This document shows, piece after piece, positions 6,409 through 54,881 of a stretch of DNA of 64,000 nt. This DNA comes from Letharia columbiana. Taxonomy: Eukaryota; Ascomycota; Lecanoromycetes; Lecanorales; Parmeliaceae. Within the stretch, counting starts at the first letter, position 1. Every line of letters begins with the position of its first letter. The DNA is taken from positions 372,001-436,000 of the forward strand of contig NW_023501039.1 of assembly GCF_014066305.1 (NCBI RefSeq), written 5' to 3'. A program made the position numbers and the translations under genes. Below the pieces are notes generated by a model, which was given only the letters and a program-made list of their open reading frames with translations, was not told the origin of the DNA and did no database searches.

Positions 6409-8699
<2,291 letters not shown>

Positions 8700-34152: not shown

Positions 34153-35628
34153 CTACATCCAAAACGAGTACCTTCGCTCCAAAGGCTGGGCATCGGGCTG
34201 TCCCAACCACCGTACTGCTGGACAGGGATCCTCCAGACGAGCGCAGATTCTTCGGTACCGCTCGATGTCCTGACGGTAGTCTTCGCGGTCTATCACGCTG
34301 ATACTGTCATTCACGTCGACCTCTTCTGCGTCCCATTCGTCTATCTCCACCGATTCGGTGTCTGATTGACTGGTGGTGTTGAGGATGTTGTCCATCCAGT
34401 CATGGATGAAACCCCAGTCGTGGGAGGAGTTATAGTCGGCGATCTTGTTCTCCGGCCAGCTCTCCTCATATTCGGCTCCATAGTAAAACTCTTGCCCGTG
34501 ATCGGAACCTATTGCGCCTAATGCTTGGGCACGTTCTCTTGCTTCCTCGAATTCCTCCTCTGCATCGATCAAGGCTCGTGTGAGTTGCTGTCCATACCGA
34601 ACTTTTCGGCGGTCGAAGTCGCTTCTAGACATGTCGATAGTACCAGCTGCGGCCATCTCCTGGTACTCAGCTAGATTGTCCTGGTAAAGGCCCCTCTGAC
34701 CGTCAAACTTCTCTTGAACTGTGTCCAAATATTGCGAACGCTCTATGAATTCCTCGTAGGCTTCCTGGCGCTGTTGCTCTTCTTGACTTGCCTCGATCTC
34801 GCTAGGATCAGATGCGACTGACGCTACTGGACTTTGTGCAGGCATCGGGTGTTCAGTAACTTCGACTTCTTCTTCCATATCTTCGGATTCTTGTTCACGA
34901 AGCAAGACAGCTGGCAACGGCTTCTCTGGTCCTAGAAGATCGGCTTCCCTCATAGCCGTCTCCAAAACCCACTGAGTATGATTTCTGGACAGTTCAAGAT
35001 TGCCCTTGACCAGGCCACGCTCCTTCTCGAGCTCATCTTTCCAACGACGGATTTTGAAAAGCTCGGATGTTTGTTTCTCCTTGATTTTCTGATGCTGCTC
35101 TGCTTCTTCTTCACTCGCTGCCGTCTCCAAGGCGTTCTGCCCTTCTTGGATTGAACGCTCAATATTTCTAAGATCCATCTTCGCATGGCAAAGTGGTCCG
35201 TCTAGAACACCGAGATCACGGTCTTCTTGGAAAAGGTCACGCAGCTTGGTGAGAAATGTTTCGTTCACAAGCAGTGCTACGCAGTCCTTTGAGCCATCCT
35301 TGGCTAAGACAAATCGAGAAGGGCCTTCCGTGAAGTACGGTTGCGGATTATCTCCTTGCTCGATGTGATCGTCGTCTTGCTCAGTATTTGCGGCTGAAAG
35401 GTCGACAGGGTCTTCGTTATTAGCTCTCAAGCTTTCTGTGTTTTGAGCCTGTGAAGCGTTCTCGGCTGCGTCAGGCGCGACGTCTTGCGATTGAGTTTGT
35501 GTGAAATTTGGCAAACCACTCTCAATGTCCCTTGGGACCTTTGCTGATAGCGTGCCCCTAGAACCCCTCCGCAAGAGACCAAATGCTGGCCTAATTTTAC
35601 TCAGAAATTTGTGTACGTGATTCTCCAT
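34153..35628 (-). CDS. Family A coiled-coil protein, copy A1
   Basis: Unrecognised lineage-specific protein of 491 aa. The frame is open to 35835, but comparison with A3 and A4 places the start at ATG 35628 (MENHVHKFLS), just after the conserved tttgcag acceptor of a 5'-UTR intron (35631-35744). Features: DIESGL near the N-terminus; a conserved block EGPSRFVLAKDGSKDCVALL at about 100; a long charged coiled coil (about 140-215); SRNHTQWVLETAMREADLL; a second helical stretch ending TRALIDAEEEFEEARERAQALGAIGSD; ESWPENKIADYNSSHDWGFI; and an acidic C-terminal part with DSISVID. No signal peptide or membrane segment, so probably cytosolic or nuclear. It is head-to-head with B1. Function unknown. 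Confidence 0.8.
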   Translation of the reverse strand: MENHVHKFLSKIRPAFGLLRRGSRGTLSAKVPRDIESGLPNFTQTQSQDVAPDAAENASQAQNTESLRANNEDPVDLSAANTEQDDDHIEQGDNPQPYFTEGPSRFVLAKDGSKDCVALLVNETFLTKLRDLFQEDRDLGVLDGPLCHAKMDLRNIERSIQEGQNALETAASEEEAEQHQKIKEKQTSELFKIRRWKDELEKERGLVKGNLELSRNHTQWVLETAMREADLLGPEKPLPAVLLREQESEDMEEEVEVTEHPMPAQSPVASVASDPSEIEASQEEQQRQEAYEEFIERSQYLDTVQEKFDGQRGLYQDNLAEYQEMAAAGTIDMSRSDFDRRKVRYGQQLTRALIDAEEEFEEARERAQALGAIGSDHGQEFYYGAEYEESWPENKIADYNSSHDWGFIHDWMDNILNTTSQSDTESVEIDEWDAEEVDVNDSISVIDREDYRQDIERYRRICARLEDPCPAVRWLGQPDAQPLERRYSFWM

Positions 35629-36207
35629 GACTGCAAAGCTGAGGCCGGTGTGATGAAAGATGCGGTGAAATATATTGGGCATAGACTGTTGAGTCGTGAT
35701 CAGAGCGCGGTTTTGGTAAATTAGATTGTAAGTGCTGTCCTTACACGGAAGATTTATGTCGCCAGAATTATTTGGAAATGGGGAAGGGACAAAGTCAATG
35801 GGTGTTGACGGTCCTTTGACGGCTTTGTCATACATACCTCTGGCACTCTCTACAATCTGGCTTTGTTAGGCACTTTGTCTCAAGTTTCTTTTTTAATCGC
35901 TACCTCTACAGGCTACGTACAAAGATCCTTAAACCCTTGTTTTTGAATCGCCCCACGCGTTATCTCTGTTGAAGCTCCAATACTGCATTGCTCTGCTTTG
36001 CTCCCTCTTTGTTATCTCGGTATGTTGGACAAAGCGGTTCTTTGTGCTGCTTGAGTGCCATTGTCCTGTGTTTAACCAATATCTAGCACTGCTGTAGTCG
36101 TATCCTCTCCATTCAGCATTCGCCTTCTCTCTAGGCAGCAAGATCGTTTTCACACTACCCACTTCATTTTTATCGCAACAACAGCTGATCCCTTATCTAC
36201 AAACAAG
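35629..36207. promoter_or_regulatory. Bidirectional promoter of pair 1 (A1/B1)
   Basis: 579 bp separate the two start codons. It includes the A1 5'-UTR intron (35631-35744, gtaagg...tttgcag). The motif gctctgctttgctcc at 35990-36004 has near-copies in pairs 2 and 3, always pointing from A towards B. Confidence 0.55.
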
Positions 36208-37488
36208 ATGTCATCCGGCCTCCAACTCCCTGGAGCACCTAGCTATGCATCAAGACTTCGAGGTGAGGCGCCCCCTCATAAATCAAGCAGAATCGGGAAA
36301 TCTGGAGGCATGCCCCCACCCAAACCACCTAGTGCGTTACAGAACATGAATAACAACGCAAACATGTCTAGCAATACGGGGAAGTATCTCCCGAGCACAC
36401 CCAGTAATCTGGGCATGTATTCGCAAGCTCATACTAAGACACAAAAGCCAGTGACTACAGATCGACGTCTTCCTAGTGACGACTCAGGGAAGGATAACGC
36501 TGCAGTACGAACCAAATCGCGACTCCCTGAGGACGGTTCCTGGAAGAATGACGCCGCAAGCACCGTACAGACCAGGTCACGTCTTTCACGCCTTCCCGAA
36601 GATGGTTCCTGGAGGAATGTCTCCGCAAAAGATCAGAATATTGCCGTAAGCTCCAAGGAAGAGTTGAGACCGAGACCAGATGGTCAGCAAGGTATTGTGG
36701 ATTCAATGGCTTCGCTCTCAATTAGTCCTTCCAAAAAGGCCGAGCCAATGCCTGTAGGAAGATGTTTGGATTGGGAGCGACCGGTCTTCACATCGAGCGC
36801 CAGCTCAAAGGTGAGCAAGTACTTACCAAGATCCGATCGCGACCATCCTAAGCCTACGCCCAGTGCGTACTCCATCTCGTACAAGCGAAGATACAACCAG
36901 ACTCCAATGGAAAAAGCCACATACCGTGAGTACCTCCCGTTTCTAAAATCCGAGTTTAAGGTAGGCATGATTATCCGCATGAACATCCATGAATCAGATT
37001 TCAAGGGGACGTCTAAGGCAGCAATTGCGCAGGCTTCGCAAGCCTCGACACTGGTCGACGGTGGAAGAGGTGACAAACGTCGCAAGGAACACCGGCATCA
37101 CGGGGACTTCGGTCCCATCTACTCCGAGAACAGGATCTTTTTTGTCGTCAACGTGGCCGAGGATGTCTTTACGGCCATTCCGCTATTTACGCATGAAGGT
37201 AAAGGTTTAGCAAACGTTCTTGACAAAAAGAGCTGGGTATCTGTTGAGGATCATCGGCAGCTCGGAAAATGCATACAACAGTCGGAGCACCAACCACTAC
37301 GCACGGTCTTCCTGAGCCCAGAATGCGACAAATTGGACCCGGTGAGCGCTGCGTGGATCCCTTATGCACTCCCTTGCAGATATGACGTGCCTGTGGCCTA
37401 CCAAGGGAAGTTGGACAAAGCGAGCGCGAGGCGATTGGTGAGACTTCACCGCGAATCATGGATCGATGAGGAAAGCTATGAAGACTAG
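36208..37488 (+). CDS. Family B protein (DUF6590-like C-terminal domain), copy B1
   Basis: 426 aa, single exon. The first about 230 residues are Ser/Pro/Asn-rich and probably disordered, with a thrice-repeated segment (RLPSDDSGKDNAA / RLPEDGSWKNDAA / RLPEDGSWRNVSA) and the family motif SMASLSISPSKKAEP. The C-terminal domain starts FLKSEFKVGMIIRMNIHESD, then GDFGPIYSENRIFFVV, AIPLFTHEGKGLA, SVEDHR, and PVSAAWIPYALPCRYDVPVA. The order (basic start, HE motif, R-F-x-V-V strand, P-x-x-T-H-x-G-x-G loop, [SV]xDHR) resembles DUF6590 of fungal proteins; that assignment is from memory. No function is known for that domain. Divergently paired with A1. Confidence 0.82.
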   Translation: MSSGLQLPGAPSYASRLRGEAPPHKSSRIGKSGGMPPPKPPSALQNMNNNANMSSNTGKYLPSTPSNLGMYSQAHTKTQKPVTTDRRLPSDDSGKDNAAVRTKSRLPEDGSWKNDAASTVQTRSRLSRLPEDGSWRNVSAKDQNIAVSSKEELRPRPDGQQGIVDSMASLSISPSKKAEPMPVGRCLDWERPVFTSSASSKVSKYLPRSDRDHPKPTPSAYSISYKRRYNQTPMEKATYREYLPFLKSEFKVGMIIRMNIHESDFKGTSKAAIAQASQASTLVDGGRGDKRRKEHRHHGDFGPIYSENRIFFVVNVAEDVFTAIPLFTHEGKGLANVLDKKSWVSVEDHRQLGKCIQQSEHQPLRTVFLSPECDKLDPVSAAWIPYALPCRYDVPVAYQGKLDKASARRLVRLHRESWIDEESYED

Positions 37489-38103
37489 CATCCATACGAG
37501 CTTCGACAGAGAATGCTGCAGGTTTGGGGCGAGAGCTGACGAAGACACGGACATGGGTCTCATACTGAGTTCAATAATTGGGGTTTCTATAGATTTCGTG
37601 GTTATGGGAGATGGGTCCTGATGCTTTGCGTTAATCTGTGAGTTAACGTTAATCTTTTTGGAATCATTGTTTTGCTGCGTCTGTTCTTAGATTTGTGATA
37701 AATTGTTGTATTTTACATATCGTTGTATCAAGATGAACTCCACTATCCCCAGAATTGTTCATGGTCTTTTGTCCGAAGAACGTTGAGTGCTACTCCTGAA
37801 TATGTTGTAGTCCAGGACCAAAACCTTGCGTACCTTCTAAATTTCCCTCTGATCAAGTGTGGCTGTAGTAAGGAGGCCGGGACTCATTTTGAATCTCGTC
37901 CTGGCATTATGGGAGTGGCAAGCTAGCATTGTGAGTCCACTGCTCAAACCATCAATATGAGCATCTTCTCTGAGATCCACACATTAGCGCAGGACAAAGT
38001 AGACAGGGTAAGCGATGCTCTGAATTTGATCTCTGCCAGCAAGCGCGTTCTCATATTTTGAATATTGATCATACAATACATCCCCTTGTCCTTTCGGTCT
38101 CTC
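37489..38103. other. Intergenic region between pair 1 and pair 2
   Basis: Convergent 3' ends of B1 (+) and A2 (-). Nothing recognised. Confidence 0.5.
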
Positions 38104-39627
38104 TCACGACCGAACCCGAGGGCTCTCACCGGGAGACTGCCTACCACGACAACTTCTCCGAGGATTCCGGCGCACATTCCCTGGCGACCGTCCCTCCCCC
38201 TCGCCTTCTCTAAAACGGCCAGAAAGCTCCTGCCACTTATCGATCTTCTTGCGATACATGTCGCAAGCAACGACGCTGACACTCTCGAATATTTCGACCG
38301 ACTTTGCTTCCCAGTCATCGCCCCCGGCTAGCTCAGCGTCCTCCTGCCTTTCAGGAACCACCACAGCAGAATCTGGAATTGATGCCATCCAAGCCTCGAT
38401 CCGCGACCGATTAACAGGGAACACCGACGGCGGGCTTCTCGTAATACGCAGCGGAAACTCGTTGTGATTTTCGCCCCAATAAAAAGCATGTGGATCTGCC
38501 AAGATGTCTCCTAGACCGAGGGCCTCCGCGTGTTGCTCTGTGCGATCGTACGCTTCTTCGGCCACAATCACCATCCTGGTAGCTTTTTGTTTCTCCTGGA
38601 GGACCTGTAAGTCGATGTCGGTTTGGGTGGTACTCGCAGGCCTGTCAGGGTATTGTTCGTGGTGATGTCTTCTGTTTGCTGCTTCTGCTTGCGCATACTC
38701 TTCCTGCATGAAAGTGAGTTTTCCTTTGCGGTAGTCCAATTCGTCCGCCGCGAATCTGAAGTGTCGAAGAGCTAGTTGGCGAGGTGTCATTTGTTCCTCG
38801 ATGTTGACGAGTGATTGCAGTCTTGTGGTGTACGAGGCCAGACTGCTGTCAGATACGTTGGACCTTTGAGTATCATGCACTGTCTCCTGGGGAACCGGCG
38901 CAGGTTCTGCTGAGTCGTCTTTATTAACTTCAGACGGCTCCTGGGGTTTGGACGTTGTTGGAATATTCAATAGGTTCTCACTGTTGAGAAGTTGCTCAAT
39001 CACGAACTGAGCAACCTCTCTGCTGTTCTCGAGTATTAGTTTTGACCATTTGTTCTCCTGCGCAAGACTATCACGTCGCCGCCGAGCTTCGACCAGCTCC
39101 GGTATTCCCGCTTCGATGTGTTCCTGCGTTTTAATGGCCTCTTCCACTGTTCTCTTTGCTGTCTCTATCCCAGCCGACTGGTTTGACGACTTGATCTGCT
39201 CGAGCTCGAGTTGTGCCTTCTGTATTGCTCCATCTCTTTCTTGTACCTCACGGCTAATGACGGCAATGCGCGTGAAGGTGTTGAGCAATGCTTTGTTGAA
39301 ACAGATTGCCGGGCAGCGTTTACCTCGCTCATCAGTGAAGACGATATGACCTGGTCCATCAACGAACTCTTGCTCCTGGGTTGGGTTCAAAATCTTCGTC
39401 ATAGGGTTTGATGGCTGCTGGGACTCTACTCGCTCACTGTGATGGTCACCGTCTAGGCGAGCACGTTTCCGTGGAGCCTCCACTTGGTCCTCCCGAAGGT
39501 CGCCTTGTGAGCGTTTGCCATTCATATTCCGCGAAGTATCGAATTTGTCGTCTCTGTAGGGAGCGGATTTACTTGCGCCCGAACGCTGGAGACTCTGACT
39601 CGAAGGGTTGGAATCTTGATGAGACAT
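38104..39627 (-). CDS. Family A coiled-coil protein, divergent copy A2
   Basis: 507 aa, single exon. It is the most diverged A member, but the layout is the same: a block DGPGHIVFTDERGKRCPAI aligned with the GPSRF block of A1, a long coiled coil, SREVAQFVIEQLLNSENLL aligned with the WVLETAMREA block, then VAEEAYDRTEQHAEALGLGD, AFYWGENHNEFP, a W-containing helix (IEAWMASIPDS) and WEAKSVEIFESVSVVACDMYRKKI. It has its own N-terminal extension with a nuclear-localisation-like APRKRARLDG, and a basic Arg-rich C-terminus, so nuclear residence is possible. Head-to-head with B2. Confidence 0.75.
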   Translation of the reverse strand: MSHQDSNPSSQSLQRSGASKSAPYRDDKFDTSRNMNGKRSQGDLREDQVEAPRKRARLDGDHHSERVESQQPSNPMTKILNPTQEQEFVDGPGHIVFTDERGKRCPAICFNKALLNTFTRIAVISREVQERDGAIQKAQLELEQIKSSNQSAGIETAKRTVEEAIKTQEHIEAGIPELVEARRRRDSLAQENKWSKLILENSREVAQFVIEQLLNSENLLNIPTTSKPQEPSEVNKDDSAEPAPVPQETVHDTQRSNVSDSSLASYTTRLQSLVNIEEQMTPRQLALRHFRFAADELDYRKGKLTFMQEEYAQAEAANRRHHHEQYPDRPASTTQTDIDLQVLQEKQKATRMVIVAEEAYDRTEQHAEALGLGDILADPHAFYWGENHNEFPLRITRSPPSVFPVNRSRIEAWMASIPDSAVVVPERQEDAELAGGDDWEAKSVEIFESVSVVACDMYRKKIDKWQELSGRFREGEGEGRSPGNVRRNPRRSCRGRQSPGESPRVRS

Positions 39628-40353
39628 CTCAAAGCCTCCTATGCAAAGATCGTAGTAATGGAAAGACCAGGTTTGAGTGCTGGCTTGTGCGACACTACGT
39701 GACGGTGCTCAAAGAGGGCCAGTTTAGCTTGCGTCGACAGGCTGCAGTTGTCGTAAATCTGGAGATGTATATAACGTTTATAGTTCGGGGGAAACCTTGA
39801 TGAAGGGGTTCAACTGGTCGTGCTGTTTTTCGATTCCTTTATGGTCGCATCCGGTTAGGATAGCTCTGGAGAAATAGGGGATCGCTGGTCGCTTTGTTGC
39901 TCTGCTGTTCCTTCTTTTTTAGTCAATCTTCGCTTGCATTAGGTAAAGATGCTCCTGGTCATAGGAGCCACCGCACCTTCTTTTATAAGATGCTAACCTC
40001 GGACTTGTTCTCAATAGTTGCTTGTTGCGTACTTGTGATCAGAGTTGAACAACATTGCTTTGAGGTTTGTTCTGTAAACAAAGAATTGAGGGCTAGACTG
40101 ATCCCACTGCTTGTCCGCTATTAGCACGTGATTGTCATGAAAGACTGTCCGTTGTCCTACGGACAGCTAGTATTGTACAATTATGAAAGAACGAAAACCA
40201 TATTCTGTCACATAGGTGGTCCACGCTTCGTTGCAACTATCAAGAATCATCTCCATTTTCTCCACGTTCAACTTGACAGTATTAGTGAACTAAAACCACG
40301 CCTTACCACTCACAAACAGCATTGACTGCTGTGAAATCCACTTTTTCTCGAAC
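39628..40353. promoter_or_regulatory. Bidirectional promoter of pair 2 (A2/B2)
   Basis: 726 bp between start codons. The motif gctctgctgttcc at 39899-39911 resembles those in pairs 1 and 3 and lies in the same A-to-B orientation. No ORF of interest. Confidence 0.45.
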
Positions 40354-41334
40354 ATGACTTCGACGGCTACGTTCACGCAAATGTCCACTCGCACGGATGG
40401 CAGGTCCACCGTGCATAGCCACTCGATCGACCATTGGTCACCAACACGCGACCGATTTTCACTGCGCCATCATTACTCATCACCTGATAAATACTCGCCA
40501 AACAAAAGGCAGCATTGCGACAGCGACCGGGACTACCCTCGAGAAGATGCTGCTCTTCATGTAATCCAAAATCGCGCCATAGCGAGGCTGAGATCGTCTA
40601 CTGCGAGTGCCATCTCAAGGGATTCTATCAGTAGTTACCAGTCACGTACGTACAATCCCAATAACCCTATTGACAAAAAAAGCCGGTCCAGAGCCGATTT
40701 CGAGATACTGGAAATTCGAAACTATCCGCTTCCGCGTATGAAGGATATCAGTGCGACTATATGTTGCCGGTTTCCTAAGGAAGAGTTCAATCTTGGAACG
40801 ATCATAAAGGCTCCCATTCATGAAGAAGACTTCAAGTGGACACCTCGGCCCCTGTCAGTGGAAGCGTCGGAAACCGCCGATGAACAAGGAAGATACTCTC
40901 ACTCCGGAATGTCAACACCACGGACTACACCCAACAAAAGGCGGCACATCACCTTTTCAAATTGGAACGATCCAATCTATACAGAAATGCGTTTCATGAT
41001 TGTCGTAGCCTTGTTTTACGACCACTATCTCGCCATTCCTCTTTACACTCACGGAGGCAACGGTCTCGCTCACAAAGATAATAAATGGGAGTACGCATCC
41101 ATCGAGGATTACCGCGAACCAAGGTCTCTTCAGGAGGCTGGGTTTCTGCTGCATACCGAGTACCTGAAGCCCGATTGTAAGCATTTACTCCCAAAGAGTG
41201 TGGCTCACATTGCCTATCCAGTCTCGCGCAAATACACTTTGCCAGTCGCGCCTCAAGGGCGTCTGCGAGAAGACTCAAAGAACGTTCTTGTGAAACTCTT
41301 TGGCCAATACATGCTGGGAATGAAGCCTGAGTAG
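40354..41334 (+). CDS. Family B protein (DUF6590-like), copy B2
   Basis: 326 aa, single exon. A shorter, Ser/Arg-rich N-terminal region (about 1-125) leads into the domain: FPKEEFNLGTIIKAPIHEED, NDPIYTEMRFMIVVALFYDH, LAIPLYTHGGNGLAHKDN, ASIEDYREP, LPKSVAHIAYPVSRKYTLPV and APQGRLREDSK. All motifs of the B domain are intact. In B1, B3 and B4 the strand before the R-F motif reads YSENR; here it is YTEMR. Divergently paired with A2. Confidence 0.82.
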   Translation: MTSTATFTQMSTRTDGRSTVHSHSIDHWSPTRDRFSLRHHYSSPDKYSPNKRQHCDSDRDYPREDAALHVIQNRAIARLRSSTASAISRDSISSYQSRTYNPNNPIDKKSRSRADFEILEIRNYPLPRMKDISATICCRFPKEEFNLGTIIKAPIHEEDFKWTPRPLSVEASETADEQGRYSHSGMSTPRTTPNKRRHITFSNWNDPIYTEMRFMIVVALFYDHYLAIPLYTHGGNGLAHKDNKWEYASIEDYREPRSLQEAGFLLHTEYLKPDCKHLLPKSVAHIAYPVSRKYTLPVAPQGRLREDSKNVLVKLFGQYMLGMKPE

Positions 41335-41564
41335 GGCAGTCTACAGGACGGTAGGTTTCAAGACCTCCTACCAATACTGACGGTGACAGCTGCTCTAGAT
41401 ATCGACGTATCGTCGCGCTGGTAAGTGTCCAGTCAGCGGGGTTTTTCTATTTAGGGATGGGAGTGCGCAAAGTTTATTGTAATTCGTATGATTTTCAGTT
41501 GCTTCAAACCTTTTGTCTTATTTCATGTCGTACTGTTATGCTATTGAACGCAAATTCACGACAT

Positions 41565-42717
41565 CTACCGAGAAGCAAGCGCATGGAGGTCTCTCCTTAC
41601 AGCTCCAGACGACGAAGAATGCTCTAGAGGCCTGGGTGGCTTCCCAATCCAACCCAAGGCTACTTGTCTGCCCGTGACATGATTGATGACATCGATAAAA
41701 GCTTCCCGGTCGTGCCCTTCATTGACAATGTAAAGCCAGAGCCCCTCAGCAATGATTGCCAGCTCAGCCCAAGCCAGATTGGCCGTAGCCCATGGCATTC
41801 TCTGTATCCACAACTGCAAGCCTCCTAAGCTCTTCGAGTACTCTGTTGAGGGTAAACGAGCATTCCTGCCATGGGCGGTGATCTCTTCTTTGATGGCAGC
41901 GCTGACGGCGACGAGAAGGCTTTCCAAATCCCAGAGATGCAAATAGGAGCCCAAATTCCCGAGGCGCAGTGTGTAGTCAGTGTGGGGGATAGGAAATTCG
42001 TCTGCCGTCGGCAAGCTCAGGGTACTCCCGTTTATGACACCAGTGGCTGATGACATAGAAGAGTATTGCACCGAAGGTGGTCGCGCAACTTCTCGCTTAG
42101 ATTCGATAGCCGACGAGGCAATGTCTTGTCTGATAGACCCCTTATTCATGATGATGGCTTTGGTAGCACCCAGATTTTGAATTACCTGGAATCGAACCGC
42201 TCGGGATCGTCTTTGGATCATGTACAGCGATAGCCCATTGATAACATTACGCAGCTCTCCCAAGCTCACACACCCTTCCAGGGAGACGGACCTACTCCAT
42301 AGTTCCAGCACTAATCCATCATCTGATGTGTAATTGTACCATCGCTCGGAAAACGCCGCATTCACGCTACTTTGGTCAATCTGATGTTGGATGTCGTTGC
42401 TCGCTTCCACGAAGAAGGATTTCAAGTCCGTAGGGTCCAAGAGGGGCCCGAATTCATGAAACTTCAGAGTCAGGACTGTCTTGGGGATGGTGAATATATC
42501 AGAGCTATGATCCTCAATGTTAGCGACTATGCCTGTGTGGGAACGTGGCTGATTACGTTGGCAGTGATAATTTCGTAGCTTGTGATAGCTTAAGAGCGAG
42601 CGAATCTTGGATGAGCGAAAGAGAGGGCGAATTCACCGGCACGACAGGCAGTGAGAACGTAAATCTCGCAAGGACTGTGAGAAAAAGATATGCTGAAAAA
42701 GTACGACTTTTTGACAT
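41565..42717 (-). CDS. Predicted secreted protein with tandem internal duplication (gene C)
   Basis: Unrecognised protein of 366 aa from two exons: 42557-42717 and 41565-42504. The intron (42505-42556) has gtaatc, a gctaac branch point and a tag acceptor, and restores phase exactly. The N-terminus MSKSRTFSAYLFLTVLARFT then FSLPVVPV looks like a cleavable signal peptide. The body consists of two homologous halves of about 115 aa. Half 1 starts FTIPKTVLTLKF and contains LDPTDLKSFFVEAS and LGELRNVINGLSLYMIQ. Half 2 starts FPIPHTDYTLRL and contains LHLWDLESLLVAVS and WAELAIIAEGLWLYIVN. Both end with a V-I-N-rich helix and a Gly turn. No cysteine framework is evident. The gene sits at the symmetry centre of the A/B array. 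Effector, cell-wall or allorecognition roles are all possible; none is shown. Confidence 0.65.
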
Positions 42718-43822
42718 TGAGGGCATTTAGGTGCGCGGATGATGCACGCTCAGCCAGGATGTGAAAGCAAATGCTATGGGGGGGCGGGTCTCAGCATCTT
42801 TAAGTACTCGCCACAGCTTGTACATATGATCCTGATGCAGGAGCGGACAGATATTTCTCATCTTCGCATGCTGGAATGCTTGCGACACGCGATAACCGCC
42901 CATCGAGGGTAGGGACGCCCCTCAACATGGCGCCCGTACGAGCACCTATCGCAAGAGGATAAGATGGGAAAAGGGTTGCTGCTGATAACGAAGGTACTCT
43001 TTAGTGGAATTAGATATCAGCATCAAGTTGATACCCATAACTTTCCCTCACTCCATTCGAAGTCACACTGACACGAGATGGACAAGTGTTCATACATCCT
43101 TTTATATCGTGATACGTATGTCCGGTCAGATAGAGGGCGTCCATGGCTTTGAGTGTTTCTGGAGACAATTGAGATGGGTGGGCGAAAAGGAGCTAACTTT
43201 ACGTTTTTATTACTAGCGGTAATAAGATCACCTCCTAAGCTTCAATGTCATGTAGTCGACGTTTTTGAGCCGGCGCTCGGTTGTTCATATGAACACGGCC
43301 TAACTGTACGCATACCAGTGATTTCAGATCTCTGAATATACTGTCGAGTGGCCTCTACAGCTTGCATTCACCGATGTTGCTGTGCGCTCGTTGTCTGGCC
43401 AGCTGTAGGATTTTAAACTGATGAAGGATTGGAGAAAATGGTCTATTGAAAGAGGACTCCGAGTATACTTACCCTAGGATTAAGTATACTCGGTGTCTCT
43501 AAGGGTCTCTTCTGGGGCTCGCTGGGGCCCATATGTGGTGAGTGTAGATCTGATTAAACATTTTGGTTTAAGGAAGACACAATACAGGGGACACTGTCTA
43601 TTTAAATACTTTCTCAGCTCCTGGAAGGAAAACGCCACTGATTGCCCACTGGCTATATCTACCTTGTCTAAGGATCTTGCTCTGGGTTCCGCTAAACAAT
43701 ATTACAACCAGATCCTAGGGAAACACTGCTGTCAGTTCAAGTACGGTACCCAGTCTTATTTTCGTCAGCAATCCTCCACACTATTAACCCTACCGTTTTG
43801 CAACTTGCAAGGAGGCCCAGCC
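42718..43822. other. Central intergenic region of the array
   Basis: 1.1 kb with no supported gene. It contains the perfect inverted repeat at 43459-43493 and a following stretch (about 43494-43800) with an open but featureless plus-strand frame. Confidence 0.5.
43459..43493. repeat. Perfect 12-bp inverted repeat with 11-nt spacer
   Basis: ccgagtatactt (43459-43470) is mirrored by aagtatactcgg (43482-43493). The spacer accctaggatt contains the palindrome cctagg. It could be a DNA-transposon footprint, a hairpin or a binding site. It lies close to the point where pair orientation flips. Confidence 0.85.
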
Positions 43823-44872
43823 TCAATGCTCCATGATCCATGTTTTGAACAAGGACACCAAGCTCTCGGTATCTTCGTCGGTCAACCTGCCTTGGTGCGC
43901 AATAGGTAACCTGTACTTTCGGGAGACTGGATTTCCTAGATGAGCTGTAGTGAACTCGTGCAAGGTTTTGACATGCTCTTTCAGCACAAGGGTACGTACC
44001 ACATCGACTCTGCCCTGTCGAATGCATTTTTCGGGCTCCCGGTGGTCTTGGACGGATACGTATTCGTCTTTTGCTTGCTTGTATGCGGTACCGGTTCCAG
44101 CGTGTGTGTAGAAAGGCAGCGCCATGTAAGTATCAGTCCCCAAGACAACAACGACCATGAATCTGTTCTCGGAATAGACCGGTCCGAAGTCCGTCATCTG
44201 CTGGTGATTCTTCGCAAAACCGCTTGGGGTGGACATATCTGAAGCAGCAATGGAAAGTTGGGAAGGAGCCGAACACGCAGCTGCAGTAGCCCCCATGTAA
44301 TCCTCCTCATGGATAGGGGCGCGAAAGATCATCCCTATCTTGAATTCGTATTTAGGAAATGTGTGATAGTCACGGTTGTCCGCGATTTCCATGGCAGGCG
44401 GAACTTTAGCGCGTTGAGTTCTTTCCGTCCAATAGCTTCCAACGCTTGAGGGCCGAGGACCCTTCCATCTACTCTCGGTTGGCTCTGCTTTTGGAGCGGA
44501 ATTAGTGGCGAGCTTTTTCATCGAGTTGGCCAAGTATTGTTGATCGTGTAATTCAGATCGGGGTGCACCTGAGGAGCTGGTGCATTTGTCACCCCAATAT
44601 TCCTCGTCTGGACCCTCATCCAAACCGCCTGATTTGGGAGGCGTAGAACGGAAGTCTGTACTCGTTTCGTTGATTGTCCCCAAGTTACTGGGCACGCAGA
44701 CCTTCCTACCCACGTTACTGGGCTGAGGGCGTCCATGCCGCGTCATTCCCACATTGATAGGAGGTTTTCCGACATTACTGGTAGTCCCTACCACAATGCT
44801 AGACTTAATTGCAACTGGGTTGTTTCTCCGTATCTTGCTGTTTGGATAGCGGCCTGTGTTGTTTTGGGACAT
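43823..44872 (-). CDS. Family B protein (DUF6590-like), copy B3
   Basis: 349 aa from ATG 44872 (MSQNNTGRYPNSKI); the frame is open a little further upstream but only through a TTG. The N-terminal region repeats short SNVG/SNLG/INVG units (TSNVG, INVG, PSNVG, PSNLG) and includes the family motif SMKKLATNSAPKAEP. The domain: FPKYEFKIGMIFRAPIHEEDY, DFGPVYSENRFMVVVVLGTD, MALPFYTHAGTGTAYKQ, YVSVQDHREPEKCI, then NPVSRKYRLPIAHQGRLTDED. All family motifs are present, so the protein is probably functional. Head-to-head with A3; the orientation is the reverse of pairs 1 and 2. Confidence 0.82.
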   Translation of the reverse strand: MSQNNTGRYPNSKIRRNNPVAIKSSIVVGTTSNVGKPPINVGMTRHGRPQPSNVGRKVCVPSNLGTINETSTDFRSTPPKSGGLDEGPDEEYWGDKCTSSSGAPRSELHDQQYLANSMKKLATNSAPKAEPTESRWKGPRPSSVGSYWTERTQRAKVPPAMEIADNRDYHTFPKYEFKIGMIFRAPIHEEDYMGATAAACSAPSQLSIAASDMSTPSGFAKNHQQMTDFGPVYSENRFMVVVVLGTDTYMALPFYTHAGTGTAYKQAKDEYVSVQDHREPEKCIRQGRVDVVRTLVLKEHVKTLHEFTTAHLGNPVSRKYRLPIAHQGRLTDEDTESLVSLFKTWIMEH

Positions 44873-45506
44873 TTTGCTGGTGGGTATTGGCTTGGTTTTC
44901 AATGGGAAAGCTTTGACTTGTTGTCAGATTAAGTCAAAATGCTGAAGGTTGTAATGGTGAACGAATTCAAATAGGAGGTGGGTGAAAGGTGAAGGAATTT
45001 AAAGCAAAGTAAGCAAAGACATATTGAAGCTTGGGTTCTGTCTTCATCTGTTTGAAATCGCACAACGCCATTCATTCGAGAGACAAAGATGCGGCATCAC
45101 GAACCAGAAAAAAGACGCGGCTGTGGGAAGACAATGGAATTGTTGTACCCCTATACGACCGGCTGTTACACACAGAGATAACAGTCGTGCTAGGCTTTCG
45201 CGATCTCGTAATCAAGGTACTGCCAAAACAATGGCCGCAGAACACAAAACGCGCCCAACAAAGCTAGAAAAATATAGTCTGGGAGCTTTTGCACAATGAG
45301 CAGCATTCAATCTAACTAGAACAAAGCAGAGCATGGGGTTCATCTAGAAGCCAGTAGAATCTCTTTTCCCTACCATAATAACACTTCTGCTGCAATCCAC
45401 ACAAATTGCGCTTTTCCAGTTGGTAAGAATCCCACGTGGAGACAGCATTAACGCACCCTCCAATACACCACCTTTGAATCTGCATACTACCCTCAACTTT
45501 GCAGAC
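44873..45506. promoter_or_regulatory. Bidirectional promoter of pair 3 (B3/A3)
   Basis: 634 bp between start codons. It includes the A3 5'-UTR intron (45423-45504, gtaaga...tttgcag) and gaacaaagcagagc at 45319-45332, the reverse complement of the pair 1 motif, again pointing from A to B. Confidence 0.5.
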
Positions 45507-47036
45507 ATGGAACGTGTGCGAGATTATGTTCATGCAAGAATCAACAAGGCATATGGCTTACTGCAAGTCTTCAAGCAAAGACTACGGCCAGAGACCACGG
45601 CTGACATTGAGAGTGGCCCGTTGGACTTGTCGCGGCAGTCCTTAGTTGACGGCCCATTAAAGGATACTCCAGAGCTCGACGATTTCCGTGTTGTGGGCGC
45701 TTTCGTAGGATCCAACGACCATCGTTTCGAGCAGGAGCAAGCACCACAGCCGAAGATGACTAAAGGACCTGCACGATTCATAACAGCTAATGATGGTTCG
45801 GAGAATTGCATGGCCTTGCTTGTCACCAAAAGTCTGATGGCGAAGCTCGGTGATTTCTTCGAGGATAAGCTGCAGCTTGAGATCAAGTCTGGACTTCTTG
45901 AACATGCGAAAATCGACGCCCGAGAAATTCACTCATCTCTTGAAAAAGCAAAAGAATCCTTGGAGAAAGCAAGAAGTCAAGAGAGAACTGACGAGCTCGA
46001 AAACTTTATTGAGCAACAACATCCCAAGCTACTTAAGGCCTGTCAGCGAAGAGACAAATTAGAGGAGGAGTATCGTCGCATTCAAAGAAGTGTTAACCTT
46101 TCGAGAGATCATACACAATGGGTCTTGGAGACGGCTATGAGAGAAGCGAATCTTCTCAAGCCGCATAGGACGCCCTCCCCAGAATTGCTCGGCGAGGACG
46201 AAAGCGATATCGGAAACACAAAATCTCCACCACAAGGCCCGATTGCTCCAGACTCTGAGAACGATGTCAAATCTCCACTCAGTGAAGCAGAGCTGGTCCG
46301 CCGAGCAGCTCTCGAAGAATTAGGCAAGAGATCGCGGACATTGGATGTCGTCCAGGCTAAATTCGATAACCGACGATGCGCATACGAGGACAATTTGGCC
46401 AAATTCCAACAGGGACTGAAAGACGGTGTTTGCAACTATTCCAGAAGTGATTTTGATCGTCGCGGTGTGGAATACGGATCAAAGATCACGCGAGCCGTGA
46501 TCAATGCCGAGGAAGCCTTTGATCAGGCAGAAGCTTACGCCAAAGCCGTTGGCGCCATCGACTCCCAGTACGGACAGCCGTCCGGCCACTATGAGGAAAG
46601 TCTGCCAGATGACCACATGGCATCCTACATAGCCACAAGAGATTGGGGATTTGTCCATGACTGGCTGGCAAACGTCCTCGACGCTGATGTGCTCCAAGAT
46701 CCAAACAGCCATAATAATCCAGGGTACACTGAAGACGGCGAGTGGAACGAAGGACAAGATGGACCAGACACTGCGAGAGGCAGCGAAGACGATGACTGGG
46801 AGGTCCCGGAAGCTGAGATACAAGACAGTGCGAGTGCGATCGATTATGGCTTTAACCGAAAAAACCTCGACCGGTGGCAGCAACTCTGCGCTCAGCCCCA
46901 GCCTGACGCTTCTCCGGAGGCCTGGGATACGTGGCCGGAGGCTATGCGTATGTGGCCGGTGAATGAAGTAGAGCGGCGACATTCATTCGGGGGTTATAGC
47001 TGTCAGAGTTGGGATGATGGTGATGAACTAACATAA
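45507..47036 (+). CDS. Family A coiled-coil protein, copy A3
   Basis: 509 aa from ATG 45507 (MERVRDYVHARINKAYGLL), chosen because A1, A3 and A4 all have tttgcag, two bases, then ATGG here. Features match A1: DIESGPLDLS, KGPARFITANDGSENCMALL, a charged coiled coil (about 125-205), SRDHTQWVLETAMREANLL, SDFDRRGVEYGSKITRAVIN and AEEAFDQAEAYAKAVGAID, ESLPDDHMASYIATRDWGFV with HDWLANVLDA, and an acidic tail with DSASAIDYGFNRK. The coding region has no frameshift. Likely soluble and intracellular. Head-to-head with B3. Confidence 0.8.
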   Translation: MERVRDYVHARINKAYGLLQVFKQRLRPETTADIESGPLDLSRQSLVDGPLKDTPELDDFRVVGAFVGSNDHRFEQEQAPQPKMTKGPARFITANDGSENCMALLVTKSLMAKLGDFFEDKLQLEIKSGLLEHAKIDAREIHSSLEKAKESLEKARSQERTDELENFIEQQHPKLLKACQRRDKLEEEYRRIQRSVNLSRDHTQWVLETAMREANLLKPHRTPSPELLGEDESDIGNTKSPPQGPIAPDSENDVKSPLSEAELVRRAALEELGKRSRTLDVVQAKFDNRRCAYEDNLAKFQQGLKDGVCNYSRSDFDRRGVEYGSKITRAVINAEEAFDQAEAYAKAVGAIDSQYGQPSGHYEESLPDDHMASYIATRDWGFVHDWLANVLDADVLQDPNSHNNPGYTEDGEWNEGQDGPDTARGSEDDDWEVPEAEIQDSASAIDYGFNRKNLDRWQQLCAQPQPDASPEAWDTWPEAMRMWPVNEVERRHSFGGYSCQSWDDGDELT

Positions 47037-47649
47037 ATACTTGAAAGCCGTCAATATTTAGGCCGTACAACTGGCCTTCAAATGCACCCATCGAGCAAGG
47101 AACCAATCAGTACTTGGAACGTAAATCACAGCACAGCCCAGTATGGGACTGATGGCGCAGACATTCTCAAATTGCGAAATAGCATTGTGTCGTCTTGTCT
47201 GATCGGACCACTGACTAAACTCAGAGCCTTGTTGATGATTCAGGTAAAAGATCAGAAAGTGTGACGGTCAAAGCGGTACAAATCAATGAAATTTTCGACC
47301 AGCGCGGCAACAAAGGCTGAAGTTTCTCGGCTGCATAACACTCTGTCTGGGGCAGTCTTTTATTGATAGGAGAACAAAACCTTTCGAGTAGACTGCGAAG
47401 ACAATTATAATCAAAGGCTACTAACAATGGCAACAATACGTGAAGCTTCTATGAACAGAGATACCAATAAACACACTTCCCTTTAAGACGTCAAGCGATG
47501 GAAAGAAAGAGTACTTGCCTTCCATTACTACGAGGTCCCACAAAAAATCACCATCAAGCCCTGTATTTGATCGATGTTGCTGAGTCCCTCGTCAGCATGC
47601 GTATCGAACGCTGCGGCTCACTTTTATCCACTCCGTTGGGATCGATACG
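47037..47649. other. Intergenic region between pair 3 and pair 4
   Basis: Convergent 3' ends of A3 (+) and B4 (-). Nothing recognised. Confidence 0.5.
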
Positions 47650-48868
47650 CTACAACTCATCACTTTCCTTACGGTCGGTCCACTTGAGATACATCGCAAC
47701 CAGGCGTTTTGTACTCTCGTCATCCAATCTTCCCTGATGGGCCACGGGTAGTCCATACTTGCGTGGAACCGCATACGAAGCATAGGCGGCACTCATGGGC
47801 AAGAGCTCGTCAACACCGTTCTTCAGCACAGCGGTGATGGGGCGATGTGCGGATTGCTGTACAACATGGCCAGGGTAACGGCCGTCCGCGACTGACACGT
47901 ACTCCTCCTTATGATGCTTCTTGGCAAGACCGTTACCTTTGTGCGAGTACACGGGTATAGCGTAGTAGTGATCCCCGGGTCGGTTGTGCACCACGATGAG
48001 GAATCGGTTTTCCGAATAGATTGGACCCCATTCTCCATGGCCGATGTGTCGGTTGTCGGCATTCGGTAGGTGCTGTTGGAGCCCTGTCTCGATTATTAGC
48101 ACTAGTAAAGTTTGTCGGAGCTTGAGACATCGCCGGGTCTGGTGTTCCCATGATGTCCTGTTCATGGATAATGCCTCGAAGGATGGTTCCTAGTACGAAC
48201 TCGTGTTTGAAGAATGGACGATAATCATCGGGCCTTGCCTCGTTCATACGTGGCTGATCGGGTGTTCGCTGGTATGTGCACGACATTACGGAAGCCGCCC
48301 CTCTGAACGGACGGTCGTTTTGACCTGATCGATGATTAGCGTTTCGCGTCAACACGGACCCTGCTCTGCCAGCTGCACAGCTTGGAACGAAGTTCTGCTT
48401 CTCACCTCGTGGGAAAATGCTTCCGGCTCGGCTAGCCGAAGGCTTCGGGAATAGGGGCTTCTCTTTATCCCGCCTCCATTCTGGAACTGTCGACTCGGTC
48501 TTTGGGCTAGGCTGCACCGTAAGTCCCGCCATTGCGGTGACAAGATCCTTCTGAGTGTCCTTTCCAGCTTTCGCTGTTGTTTTTGGATCAGCCGCTTGAG
48601 TCGCCCAGGACTCATCACCCTCAAGAAGTTCATCGACGACCCCGGACTTGCCGGATGTGCCGTCGCCCAGATTGCTAGGCCTATGGGGAGGCGACTGTAA
48701 TCTCCCCCAAACGACACTTCCTGCAAATCGTCGTGGAGCCTGATTTCCTACACCAGTGGGCGTGGGAGGAATGGGATCTCGTTTTGGAAGAATGCTGGGT
48801 GCATTTGGGCTTTGGTTCTTTCTGGGCGCATTGCTGGGTTGCCAAACGGGTCGACCGTCTCGAGGCAT
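47650..48868 (-). pseudogene. Family B copy B4, apparently frameshifted
   Basis: The start is ATG 48868 (MPRDGRPVWQPSNAPRKN). The first frame carries the disordered N-terminal region, the family motif AMAGLTVQPSPKTES, and the domain opening FFKHEFVLGTILRGIIHEQD. The rest of the domain (EWGPIYSENRFLIVV, YAIPVYSHKGNGLAKKHHK, YVSVADGRYP, MSAAYASYAVPRKYGLPVAH, QGRLDDEST) continues in another frame. The shift lies between about 48020 and 48130. I looked for an intron to reconcile the frames and found none with matching phase. Either the copy is broken by a one-base-type indel or the assembly has an error. Apart from that no stop interrupts it, so any damage is recent. Head-to-head with A4. Confidence 0.7.
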
Positions 48869-49488
48869 TCTGTGTGAGTTTAATGATGATAGTCAGTGGT
48901 GCGTGCAAACAATGACGCCGACTCGCTAAGATCTGAATTGTTTTGAAATAAGATTTACGGATGCTCAAGAGTTTTGTTAACAGCAAGCGGAGATGATGAT
49001 CGGACAGAAGATATGGCCAAGATGGTGCCTGTTGTTTCAGAGAGTGAACAATGTCGTTTTTGTGGGGGACAAAGAGGAGGTACTTTGCCTGAACAAAGAC
49101 CCAACACGAACATCTCCAATGGATCAAGATGCATGCAGTACTATTTCTGCTCACCATTGCTTTGACCTTGTTCTCTTCGGATGACAAGGCAACAAAGACT
49201 GGCTTTGAGAAACAGCCGGCTCCACAAAGCAAAGTCATGAAAGTCAGAGAACACTCTCCGGCTAGTCTCATGCAGAAGTCCTCAAAACTTATGCGCTTTG
49301 TCAATCCCGCACAATGAATCTTACAAAGAACCCAGATCCTTCCAAGCCTCTTGATCTCTTGCTCCCTTTTTCTGGTAAGACATTCGCTGCAAGCTGCAAA
49401 CTCCACCATTGCTCAGTCTAAGATACCAGGATCTATGCCCTGCTGGTATCATCGCATTTATCATCACACGTTTTTCAGGTTTGCAGGT
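48869..49488. promoter_or_regulatory. Bidirectional promoter of pair 4 (B4/A4)
   Basis: 620 bp between start codons. It includes the A4 5'-UTR intron (49375-49486, gtaaga...tttgcag). The stretch from about 49434 to 49490 is strikingly similar to the A1 leader (atgccc, catcgcat, catcacac, tttgcag). Confidence 0.5.
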
Positions 49489-51043
49489 ATGGATACCCGC
49501 GTAAAGAACTTCATCTTCAAGAAGACCGTTGGTCTACTGGAGGCCTGGCAAGGAAGGCCGCCACCAAAGGCCTCAGGTGACATTGAGAGCGGACTATTGA
49601 ATGCTACAAAATCTCCGCCAACTAACAATAAATCCCAAGACAGCCCAGACCGCGATAGAAGCGAAGATATAACGGGAAATGTAGGAGGCAACAATACGTA
49701 CCCTCAGGGTACTCCCCCAACATCAACTAGACCCATCGACCTAAGTCTCAACCAGCAACCACAGTTTACTGAAGGCCCAGCTCGATTCGTCGTTGTCAAT
49801 GATGGTTCAAAGGACTGTCTGGCTCTACTAGTCACGGAAGTCTTTGTCGCAAAATCTCGTGATCTTTACGAAGACAGTCATCACTTGTCGGGCAAACAAG
49901 GACCGCTTCAACAAGTACGGCGAGATGCTCGCAATGCCGAAGCCTATATGAGTCTTGTCAGAGAATCCCTGGAGATGGCGCAGAATCAAGAACAAGCCGA
50001 CGAGCTCGGAGAACTCTCCCAGAAGAGAGAAACTGAGTTGATCGAGGCTCGTCAGCGAAAGAAGTGAGGTCGAAAAAGGCGCAAAACTCCTCGAAAGCAG
50101 TGTCGCAGCGTCCAGGGCGTATACACAATGGGTGCTGGAGACAGCCATGGAGGAAGCTAATCTACTCGAACCACACAGGCCTCTCACACCGTTCATAGAG
50201 GCCGACAGCGAGGAGGATGAGAATTCCAACGAAATCTACAATCAACCACCCAACGAAAATGCCAACAATGAAAACGAGGTCCAGAATACAGTACGCGGTG
50301 CAGACGTTTCTAGGCAGCAGCCAGTGGTTTTGGCAATCGACGCAGAAGTTCCAGCCAGCTCAGACGAAGTTCCAGCTGATGAGGATTCTGTTCGTCAAGC
50401 GGCTTGGGAGGATTACAATGACAAATTAGAGACCTTCCACAAAGTTCAAGACATATTTGATGATCGACAGCAAGCGTACGAGACGAACTTGGCAAAGTTT
50501 CAGGATGGCATCAAAACAGGTATTTACAACATGTCTCGCAGCGAATTTGATCGCAACAGGGTCCGGCATGGCCAGAAAATCACTCGAGCCTTGATCGATG
50601 CCGAGGAAGCCTTCGATGGCGCAAAAGCATACGCTCAGGCTGTCGGTGCAACTGGATCCGACTATGAGCAGACGAATTACTTTGGCAATTATGAGGAAAG
50701 CATGCCGGAGAATCAAATGGCTTTGTACAATGCTTCGAAGGACTTCAGCGACATCTATACTTGGATGGCCAGTGTTCCCGAGACGGGTGATCCGGAAGAG
50801 TTCGAACCAGTCGACGTTGATGATTGGGATTCAAAGGAAGTCGACCAGACGGACAGCATCAGCCAGATAGACTTCGAGGAATATCGCAAGCCGATCGACC
50901 AGTGGCAGTACGAATGTGCTCTCGCTCGCGGTGACGGCCCGGAGGAGTATTATTTAGGACCTGTAAATATAGAATTCCTGGAGCGTCGGCACTCAGTTTC
51001 GCTAAGCCGTTCTAACGTTGGCGAATCGGACGTGGGTATATAG
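49489..51043 (+). pseudogene. Family A copy A4, apparently frameshifted
   Basis: The start is ATG 49489 (MDTRVKNFIFKKTVGLLEA). The first frame encodes DIESGLLNATKSP, EGPARFVVVNDGSKDCLALL and the first coiled coil, then meets TGA at 50065-50067 after EARQRKK. The homologous sequence continues one base out of frame: EVEKGAKLLESS, YTQWVLETAMEEANLL, SEFDRNRVRHGQKITRALID, AEEAFDGAKAYAQAVGATGSD, ESMPENQMALYNASKDFSDI, DSISQIDFEEYRKPI. A single extra base near 50064 explains the break. No other stop occurs over about 1.5 kb, so it is a very young pseudogene or an assembly error. No gt..ag pair near the break solves it. Head-to-head with B4. Confidence 0.7.
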
Positions 51044-51434: not shown

Positions 51435-52779
51435 GTGACTGACATCGCTCGGAACTGGTGTATACTCTACACTTCAGAAACGTCTGTAGAGATGGCTTTG
51501 GAAGTTGTGGAATTACTGGACTATATCACTTCTGATAAGTGGTGCACGAGGGCATGGGTCTTCCAAGAAGACTACCGCTCGGCAGTGAAGATCAACATCC
51601 TCATCCCCCATTCACTATGTCTGAGCGATCAACAAGCTAAAGAAAAGTGGTGCGGTGTCCCAGGTGAACTGCAAGTGAATTCGGCCTACTTCCATGAGGA
51701 GTCCACGCTATTTTGCCGAGCTTTCCGCCGGAAAGAAGGACATGAATGGCAGACAGGTTGCGCTAGGTGTGAAGATATATTGAAGAGGGCGGGAAGATAC
51801 AACATCCTATGCAAGCATGGGGACTTGGCCAGCAAGGCAATGTCGCCCTTCATATTCGCAGACATCGGAAGCAAAAATATTTCAGTAGCCTCGGATCTTC
51901 TGGCTATTGCCGCTAATTGTTGCGACTATTCCGCCCGACTGAATACCAAGATTCTGAAGGGTAACTCTTGCAGTTTGAGCATATCTGTCCTTGCTTTCTA
52001 TCTGCTCAATGGTGAAATAATTAATGAGCCGTGAGCATGATAACAACCCGCTTTCCGAGAACATATTCGATTACCTGCGGCTGCTCGCCTTGGACAGTTT
52101 TGACCCTCCTGTCGAGAGCAAGGAACCAACATTCATCAAAAGCTGTCACCTGGTCGACGTTCGGCTCTCCCCAGAAGGCATCGTGACCAGTGGTCGGCTC
52201 TGGAAATTATACAAAGCGATTGATACTGGGACCTTTGCCTCTGAAAATCCATCGGAAAAGAAATCCCTCAATGGCACGAACGCGTATCAGAGGAAACGGC
52301 TGCGGCAACTCTCTGTTGAGTTGCAAGTACGAGGCCACGAGAGGCTTGCAGTCGATCTTGAAGGTTATCTGGACGAGGACGCTAAGGGCAAGCAATACCC
52401 GTCGAAGCAGTACGAAGACTTGATGGTCGAGGAAGTTGTGGAAGCCATCAGGGATCGTAAGACGCTTTACCTGAGCTGTCTAGAAGGCACTAATCCATAC
52501 CGTGGATGTTTTGTAACTGATGCTGCTCTGGAACTGCCATCTCATGTCTTCACAGCCTGGACCCAGGCTAAATCTGGCGGTAAGGCGCTAGATGATATAT
52601 ATGCAGAAAGGCTTTTGAATAAGATTGTTTCATTGGAAGTCGATATTACAGGACACACCTTCAAAGGCCTACCTCGACTGGAAGCGGAAAGATGGGTCAA
52701 CGGATTGTGTTTTTTTGATGGAGGTCCAGCGCGAGATGTATGTTTCAACTACCCGAGCTCACTTACACAAAAGTGTTGA
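51435..52779 (+). pseudogene. HET-domain (heterokaryon incompatibility) gene, 5'-truncated and frameshifted
   Basis: HET proteins trigger cell death when genetically different hyphae fuse. The first frame (51435-52034) has LLDYITSDKWCTRAWVFQED, the typical C-terminal part of the HET domain (W-x-R-A-W-x-x-Q-E), and continues to SISVLAFYLLNGEI. The second frame (from about 52024) carries on with NPLSENIFDYLRLLALDSFD and a C-terminal region of about 230 aa with HLVDVRLSPEGIVTSGRLWK and ETLY-type strands. The frames differ by one base near 52025. Upstream of 51435 the first half of the HET domain (the usual YxALSYxWG block) is absent. It is therefore a relic unless an unseen exon lies upstream. 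Confidence 0.75.
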
Positions 52780-53866: not shown

Positions 53867-54881
53867 TGGTGCCTGGAGATGGAACAGCAGAGCAGAACGA
53901 AGAGCGGGCGAAGAAGCAAGAAAGGACCCATACTTGAGGAAAAGGACTCGAGATCGACAGCAGGGTAAACTGCTGAAACCCGCGAAGGCAGCGCTATGAC
54001 TTCTTGCAAGAATGTGATATCGCAAACAAGGCATTGCGGGCTAAAAGTGAAGATCCATGCATGTAGCCGTACGGATTGGTGGACTGACGGCTTGGGTGCA
54101 CTAGCGTATGCGGCTATGCATGCAAGCTGAAAGGGGTGCAGAAGCAAAATCCCGCAGCGAGCGATCAGACTATTCTTTTGCGTATTTACCTATCCGTATC
54201 AACCGGCCCCTCTTCATATCTCTTCACCTACTTTTACATCGTCAAATGAGAGCTGTCTTTCAAACAAGCCTAGGGGCAAGCTAAAGCAGTCGGTGCATTA
54301 GCTCTGAAGGCGACCAGTGTCATCGATAAGGCTTTCAGAGCTTATCGGGTGGAAGATCGGGTTTCGATAGATTCCGTGGACCGAAACTTTGTGTAAAGCT
54401 GGCTGAACAAGACTGACGACTCCGGAGTACGATGAGCTAGTCGACATCGACGAGTGGTACGCGAAACTTGTGGAGCTGCGAGATAGCTTCAGTATGGTCG
54501 ATGATCATCGTTACGTCGCGAGATTGGAAGCTGGAAGAAAGAGTGCAATTCGCTCCAGAAGGAGGAGATTCCTGTAGGAGATACAGTCGGCGAGACTGAA
54601 GAGGAGTAGCCAACGGTAACAGCATTGAGGAAACGACATAGGAGCCCAAAGAGATTCAGTGGAAGAAGACAAAGTTCGAGTGGTAGTTGCTATGACAGGA
54701 TTGGGGGCAAAGCCAGTACGAGAGGAATCAGCCTCGAAGCTAGAGCACTTTTCAAATGCTTTGGTGTTCAAATTGTTCCACATCATCAGTAACGGGCAGA
54801 TGAACGCAAGAGAAGCCTCTGAGGTAGGATCTAAAAATGACAATCACACCATGGCACATGCACCACGACTGTTACCCAGAA
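53867..54881. other. Intergenic region
   Basis: About 1 kb with only short, featureless ORFs. Confidence 0.45.

Follow-up and report, generated by a model that had tools for sequence, protein, structure and literature searches.

Divergent A/B gene pairs in the lichen fungus Letharia columbiana: a candidate toxin-antidote-like module with a predicted MazF-like fold

The stretch of Letharia columbiana DNA analyzed here (64,000 nucleotides; contig NW_023501039.1, positions 372,001 to 436,000; referred to as the window) carries, at positions 34153-51043, an array of genes from two families, designated A and B, which lie head to head in four pairs. The locus thereby raises the question of whether A and B act together and, if so, as what kind of system. 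Taken together, an old array, a B predicted to be shaped like a bacterial toxin that cuts RNA, and a strongly acidic coiled-coil A suggest a toxin-antidote-like system of a kind unknown to us from fungi.

Four divergent pairs and their relatives

An earlier note on this DNA had described four divergent A/B pairs with 579-726 bp between the start codons. All eight genes were found at the places and on the strands given there, and the gaps were 579, 726, 634, and 620 bp, each bounded by ATG codons. The open reading frame (ORF) listing places the starts of A1, B3, A3, and A4 further out than the ATGs used for these gaps; the ATG of B3 is the start used by its relative in Letharia lupina, a protein 97% identical to B3 in the protein search. 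The pairing of the A and B genes is real, to near certainty. The features of the array are as follows (pI, isoelectric point).

34153-35628, minus strand: A1, acidic coiled-coil protein, pI 4.5 (ORF; A profile E 1.4e-210)
35629-36207, no strand: shared upstream region of A1/B1, 579 bp, 8 ACAAAG/CTTTGT sites
36208-37488, plus strand: B1, DUF6590, MazF-like fold predicted by kinship to B3 (PF20233 E 2.9e-6, 27.8 bits, cut-off 27)
38104-39627, minus strand: A2, strongly diverged A protein, pI 5.7 (ORF; tblastn to A3 E 6.5e-22)
39628-40353, no strand: shared upstream region of A2/B2, 726 bp, 2 ACAAAG/CTTTGT sites
40354-41334, plus strand: B2, DUF6590 (PF20233 E 3.8e-9, 37.2 bits)
43823-44872, minus strand: B3, DUF6590, domain modeled as MazF-like (PF20233 E 1.9e-7, 31.6 bits; AlphaFold model of 43826-44455; fold matches)
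44873-45506, no strand: shared upstream region of B3/A3, 634 bp, 3 ACAAAG/CTTTGT sites
45507-47036, plus strand: A3, acidic coiled-coil protein, pI 4.8 (ORF; 41 homologues; structure model)
47650-48868, minus strand: B4, DUF6590, split between the overlapping frames 47650-48165 and 47933-48868 (PF20233 E 1.3e-11, 45.2 bits, for the C-terminal piece)
48869-49488, no strand: shared upstream region of B4/A4, 620 bp, 6 ACAAAG/CTTTGT sites
49489-51043, plus strand: A4, acidic coiled-coil protein, two frames, 49351-50067 and 50042-51043 (ORFs; A profile; tblastn)

A4 and B4 are each broken into two reading frames in this assembly, and full-length relatives of both occur in other lichens; the splits may reflect decay of the pair or an assembly error. 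Identity to A1 is 24-44% among the remaining A proteins or pieces, and identity to B1 is 24-38% among the remaining B proteins or pieces. A1, A3, and A4 form a close group, with A1 and A3 giving the best tblastn match among the paralogues (E 2.8e-88), and A2 is a remote member. The blocks GP-x-RF, DGS-K-D-C, and TQWVLETAM, which had been ascribed to the whole A family, were recovered in A1, A3, and A4 and are missing from the far more diverged A2.

The pairing extends to other lichen fungi. In protein searches of a database clustered at 90%, 41 homologues were obtained for A3 and 49 for B3, and the named sources were the lichen fungi Letharia, Pseudevernia, Alectoria, Usnea, and Lecanora. An A profile search, which like the A3 query scored the approximately 8000 candidates with the most words in common, added one short protein to the A3-query list. 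Fifteen contig sizes were common to the A and B lists, compared with 0.01 on average, and never more than 1, in a control that shifted the sizes by 1-50 in either direction. The shared contigs accounted for 15 of the 41 A rows and 17 of the 49 B rows, and for 14 of the 26 A3-type rows, the contig also carried a B3-type row. The rows without a shared contig size (26/41 for A, 32/49 for B) count neither for nor against pairing because the 90% clustering and limited contig reporting can hide partners. As the smallest shared contigs were 5.4 and 7.9 kb, A and B must be near neighbours there; in Pseudevernia consocians, they carry the consecutive tags Q9161_007915/007916.

Two of the shared contigs (20,160 and 55,747 bases) also carried a B2-type or B4-type gene; thus, the array is itself old in part. 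In quick trees with long branches flagged, A1, A3, and A4 and likewise B1, B2, B3, and B4 each grouped with relatives from other species, indicating that the array duplications predate these species. Among the A3-query homologues, none was a close relative of A2. Orthologues among the Letharia relatives were 95-97% identical. The distance matrices of A3-type and B3-type proteins correlated strongly (Mantel r 0.90, 0/5000 permutations) across 14 linked pairs, a value obtained without a control gene that descent along the species tree alone could yield. The A/B pairing is ancient and non-local, and the shared contigs and neighbouring tags bear out the proposal that it was kept beyond one local duplication.

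Further copies were sought in the whole genome (52.2 Mb), in which the array lies on contig C4. Two of them stand inside the window.

54407-54574, plus strand: A relic, C-terminal motif only (A profile E 8.5e-5)
54844-55806, minus strand: B5, a fifth, diverged B (PF20233 18.2 bits, below the cut-off of 27; tblastn to B2 7e-11)

The relic lies tail to tail with B5 at a distance of 270 bp. A second, partly decayed A/B cluster was located at C4:492.7-498.9 kb, approximately 65 kb beyond the array, where an A relic (minus) stands head to head with an intact B6 (plus; 51.3 bits against PF20233), followed by an intact A5 (minus, 412 residues) and more relics, including weak ones of A (L030:5826-6305, E 0.0015) and B (L030:9382-9633, E 0.008). 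As B5 had escaped both the DUF6590 profile and the query with B3, the genome was also searched with B5, B6, and A5. At E<=0.001, the queries B3, B5, B6, A2, A3, and A5 matched the genome solely within the two C4 clusters, although strongly diverged copies could escape a search that scores the best candidates per query and twice missed B5. Outside C4, two matches of the A5 query (E 0.027 and 0.41) were attributed to chance, and PF20233 found one decayed stretch with two stops (C115:73384-73644, L032), within 10 kb of which the A profile detected no A relic. Each B near both clusters adjoins an A or an A relic.

The B and A proteins

The resemblance of B to DUF6590 that had been noticed earlier was confirmed, as PF20233 exceeded its gathering score of 27 for B1, B2, B3, the C-terminal piece of B4, and B6; only B5 fell short. 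The same profile recovered 53/53 aligned B rows at E<=10. B proteins consist of a long disordered N-terminus and a C-terminal DUF6590 domain with a long insert after the first strand, and their pI was 7.2-9.8 in 49/49 homologues. The AlphaFold model of the B3 domain, compared by Foldseek, has a MazF-type barrel. The B and MazF profiles scored 21.8 against each other with both ends in register, a value equalled by 0/60 column shuffles (maximum 18.5), and in the comparison of B with single proteins, ChpB ranked 1st of 36. On the strength of this model, B very probably has a MazF-like fold.

Across 55 aligned B sequences, Arg98, Val102, Ala112, Pro114, Gly122, Asp137, and Gly189 were invariant, position 117 was always Thr or Ser, and His49-Glu50 occurred in all 54 rows having letters there. 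The Arg and Thr of MazF are catalytic. In strand order, Arg98 (in SENRF) stands at the place of the MazF Arg (in RP), and Pro114-x-x-Thr/Ser at that of the MazF P-x-T/S. The conserved Arg, Thr/Ser, and Asp may form a site that binds or cuts RNA, as judged from the sequence alignment, and the predicted fold and these candidate residues hint at an RNase activity of B. We consider the chances that B acts on RNA to be evenly balanced.

Searches for the B fold by sequence alone were negative: comparison with the PDB by profile gave one chance match (E 1.2); NCBIfam, PADLOC, PHROGs, and the PemK_toxin profile gave no match; and among the 27 and 24 pattern matches found when bacterial/archaeal and viral contigs, respectively, were scanned with the B alignment, none was confirmed. 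As a separate observation, L096, titled as a Euryarchaeota metagenome-assembled genome, carries a cyanobacterial-type psbA (84% identity), probably through a binning error.

A belongs to no Pfam family. In the A3 model, long helical hairpins span residues ~109-214 and 261-348, and the ends are disordered; the model is poor overall (predicted local distance difference test, pLDDT, 62.6; predicted template modeling score, pTM, 0.31). Fold searches with A returned only generic coiled coils (best E 0.057), and the weak A matches in PADLOC, PHROG, NCBIfam, and Pfam were judged to be coiled-coil noise. The pI of A was 4.4-5.5 in 41/41 homologues. Such acidity is by itself weak evidence because many coiled-coil proteins are acidic; the charge contrast between A and B is the one expected of an inhibitor and its RNA-binding target, and is weak evidence for such a relation.

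Shared promoters and surroundings

The four shared upstream regions, 2559 bp in total, contain 19 ACAAAG/CTTTGT sites (8, 2, 3, and 6), whereas noncoding control DNA of this genome (16.8 kb) predicts 1.5; dinucleotide shuffling, repeated 500 times, gave 2.6 sites on average and at most 9. The motif ranked first of 1327 6-mers. As this 6-mer was picked after looking, the second cluster, which had been left out when the motif was found, is of particular use: its A-relic/B6 gap together with the region upstream of A5 held 6 sites against 0.94 expected. The 600 bp upstream of B5 (1 site) and the 446 bp separating the A8 relic from the B relic (0 sites) showed no enrichment, and the tail-to-tail and other gaps of the array held 0 or 1 site.

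According to the available part of one study, the Podospora anserina HMG-box regulator PaHMG5 binds (A/G)ACAAAGAA in mating-gene promoters, a site matching the Ste11 TR-box (PMC3730723). The shorter form (A/G)ACAAAG was fitted by 15/19 sites in the array. The Letharia genome gave 10 matches to HMG-box proteins, some of which are exons of one gene. By analogy, the pair promoters may be bound by an HMG-box factor.

The surroundings of the array show further features. Positions 1-6500 of the window form an AT-rich block (GC content 16-32% in 2-kb windows, compared with ~50% elsewhere), which is likely repeat DNA degraded by repeat-induced point mutation (RIP). Between pairs 2 and 3 lies an ORF without a Pfam family (41565-42440, minus); the second cluster contains a weaker paralogue of it (tblastn E 5.8e-8 at L031:3204-3512). 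In the ORF at 53087-54034 (minus), a 54-residue segment is 56% identical to L031:2236-2691 of the second cluster; by this sequence match, it is a further family duplicated with the clusters. A possible end of a HET-domain gene was seen at 51435-52034 (plus; PF06985 E 0.055, under the cut-off), followed by an ORF without a Pfam family (52024-52779), and adjacent ORFs with PigL_N/SesA and ankyrin repeats at 58546-61779 (plus) are composed in the manner of fungal NLR-like or immunity genes.

Readings of the pair and known systems

From these observations, a mechanism can be proposed. One divergent promoter with clusters of ACAAAG, the core sequence recognized by fungal HMG-box mating regulators, would switch on A and B together. 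A would bind the basic MazF-fold domain of B and restrain it as antidote or regulator; if A were lost, or if cells mixed with a partner that has no A, B would be freed and would then bind or cut RNA in the sexual cycle or on cell contact. The parts of this proposal differ in strength. A and B probably act together, and direct binding of A to B has a slightly better than even chance. A role in the sexual phase falls just short of even, and killing or arrest by B that A relieves is possible but doubtful. As a whole, we tentatively favour a co-regulated toxin-antidote-like two-gene module of lichen fungi, based on a MazF-fold protein and multiplied into an array. A stronger form appears unlikely to us, namely, that DUF6590 is a eukaryotic MazF-fold branch which, in lichen fungi, constitutes with a dedicated acidic coiled-coil antidote a true two-gene toxin-antitoxin module under HMG-box mating control and in arrays, that is, a MazF-based killer or self/non-self system.

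Several results weigh against a MazF-like toxin with its antidote. The Foldseek E values are weak (best 0.049 in the PDB and 0.012 in the viral library, none <=0.001), and PF02452 matched 0/53 B rows at E<=10 and nothing in the whole genome. Against 21 MazF sequences, B reached a profile-profile probability of only 5-6%, and the single E. coli MazF ranked 7th of 36, in the wrong register. With Pro aligned, T/S117 lies one place off the MazF Thr; hence, the active site stays a candidate. At meaningful scores, Pfam gave no known antitoxin or DNA-binding domain for A. The full (A/G)ACAAAGAA consensus, which is that of Podospora anserina, was fitted by only 1/19 sites. Finally, the earlier note had proposed to compare A and B trees for co-divergence; the distance matrices of A3-type and B3-type proteins agree, but the paralogues within the array do not co-diverge: no other A has diverged nearly as far as A2 (end branch 3.9), while B2 is an ordinary B.

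Some of these points suit a developmental complex that involves no killing, in which B would be a MazF-fold RNA-binding protein that has lost catalysis and A a scaffold, both serving sexual development under HMG-box control. The motif-rich divergent promoters held in common, the age and conservation of the pairs, the long helical hairpins of A, and the departure of T/S117 from the exact MazF register are all consistent with it. However, the growth of the array, with several decayed copies and diverged paralogues, would be less usual for a stable complex than for conflict genes, and Arg, Thr/Ser, and Asp are still invariant in B; on balance, we regard it as a serious but rather doubtful explanation. 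Allorecognition or fungal immunity, with the array as part of an island of conflict-type genes and the compatibility of individuals decided by A/B variants, would agree with the many diverged copies and with the weak HET fragment, the PigL_N/SesA domain, and the ankyrin ORF nearby. It is quite improbable, as neither A nor B has a HET or NLR domain in Pfam and the near-identity of the Letharia orthologues shows that they are not hypervariable. Slightly less probable again is a meiotic driver or killer pair, with B as poison and A as antidote encoded by separate, tightly linked genes: the linkage, the toxin-type fold, the decaying copies, and HMG-box-type sites like those of mating-regulated genes would fit, but A/B occurs in many species rather than patchily, and known fungal drivers are mostly single genes (Spok, PMC9972908; wtf), as far as the available parts of the sources go. 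A local accident, the duplication of one segment with two unrelated genes, accords with the confinement of every A and B copy to one contig and with the two further families duplicated between the clusters, yet it is very improbable given A/B linkage in many other species, the absence of any intact B without a partner, and a promoter motif common only to the A/B gaps.

If the toxin-antidote-like reading is true, the unexplained fungal domain family DUF6590 gains a structural and functional hypothesis with a named partner, the existence of a eukaryotic MazF-type two-gene toxin-antidote system becomes testable, and lichen fungi, in which little is known of mating and compatibility genes, gain a concrete candidate module and a candidate regulator. 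The fold assignment and the pairing would be usable even without toxicity.

Among known systems, DUF6590 (PF20233), to which B belongs, has no explained function and went unmentioned in the literature searched; nor did that literature, mainly open-access, contain a report of a MazF-fold pair in fungi. In its available part, a 2008 survey states that no eukaryotic sequence fulfilled all criteria for a toxin-antitoxin pair (PMC2446400), and that of a 2009 survey treats MazF as prokaryotic (PMC2701414). With HET/NLR allorecognition genes, the locus has in common that remains of such genes lie near the array, whereas A and B themselves carry no HET (PF06985) or NLR domains. The poison-antidote logic and the sexual-phase expression proposed for A/B would be common to fungal spore killers (Spok, wtf), but these are single genes with other domains: in the available accounts, Spok unites nuclease and kinase domains in one protein (PMC9972908) and wtf is one gene, compared with two genes for A/B, and no Spok-type nuclease or kinase Pfam domain was found in A or B. 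Type II toxin-antitoxin loci are co-directional operons with a small antitoxin that binds DNA, unlike the A/B pairs, and A has no Pfam DNA-binding domain at a meaningful score; the likeness to them lies in the acidic partner adjoining B in four pairs and in the pI contrast. The MazF/PemK/Kid mRNA interferases (PF02452, type II) differ from B in that B comes from a eukaryote, does not match them at the sequence level, begins with a long disordered stretch, and carries a long insert behind its first strand, and in that A/B is divergent rather than operonic, with a coiled-coil A of 400-560 residues in place of a small AbrB- or ribbon-helix-helix-type antitoxin. What B shares with these interferases is the predicted fold, the basic charge, the acidic partner gene, and, as candidate counterparts, the invariant Arg and Thr/Ser in similar strand order.

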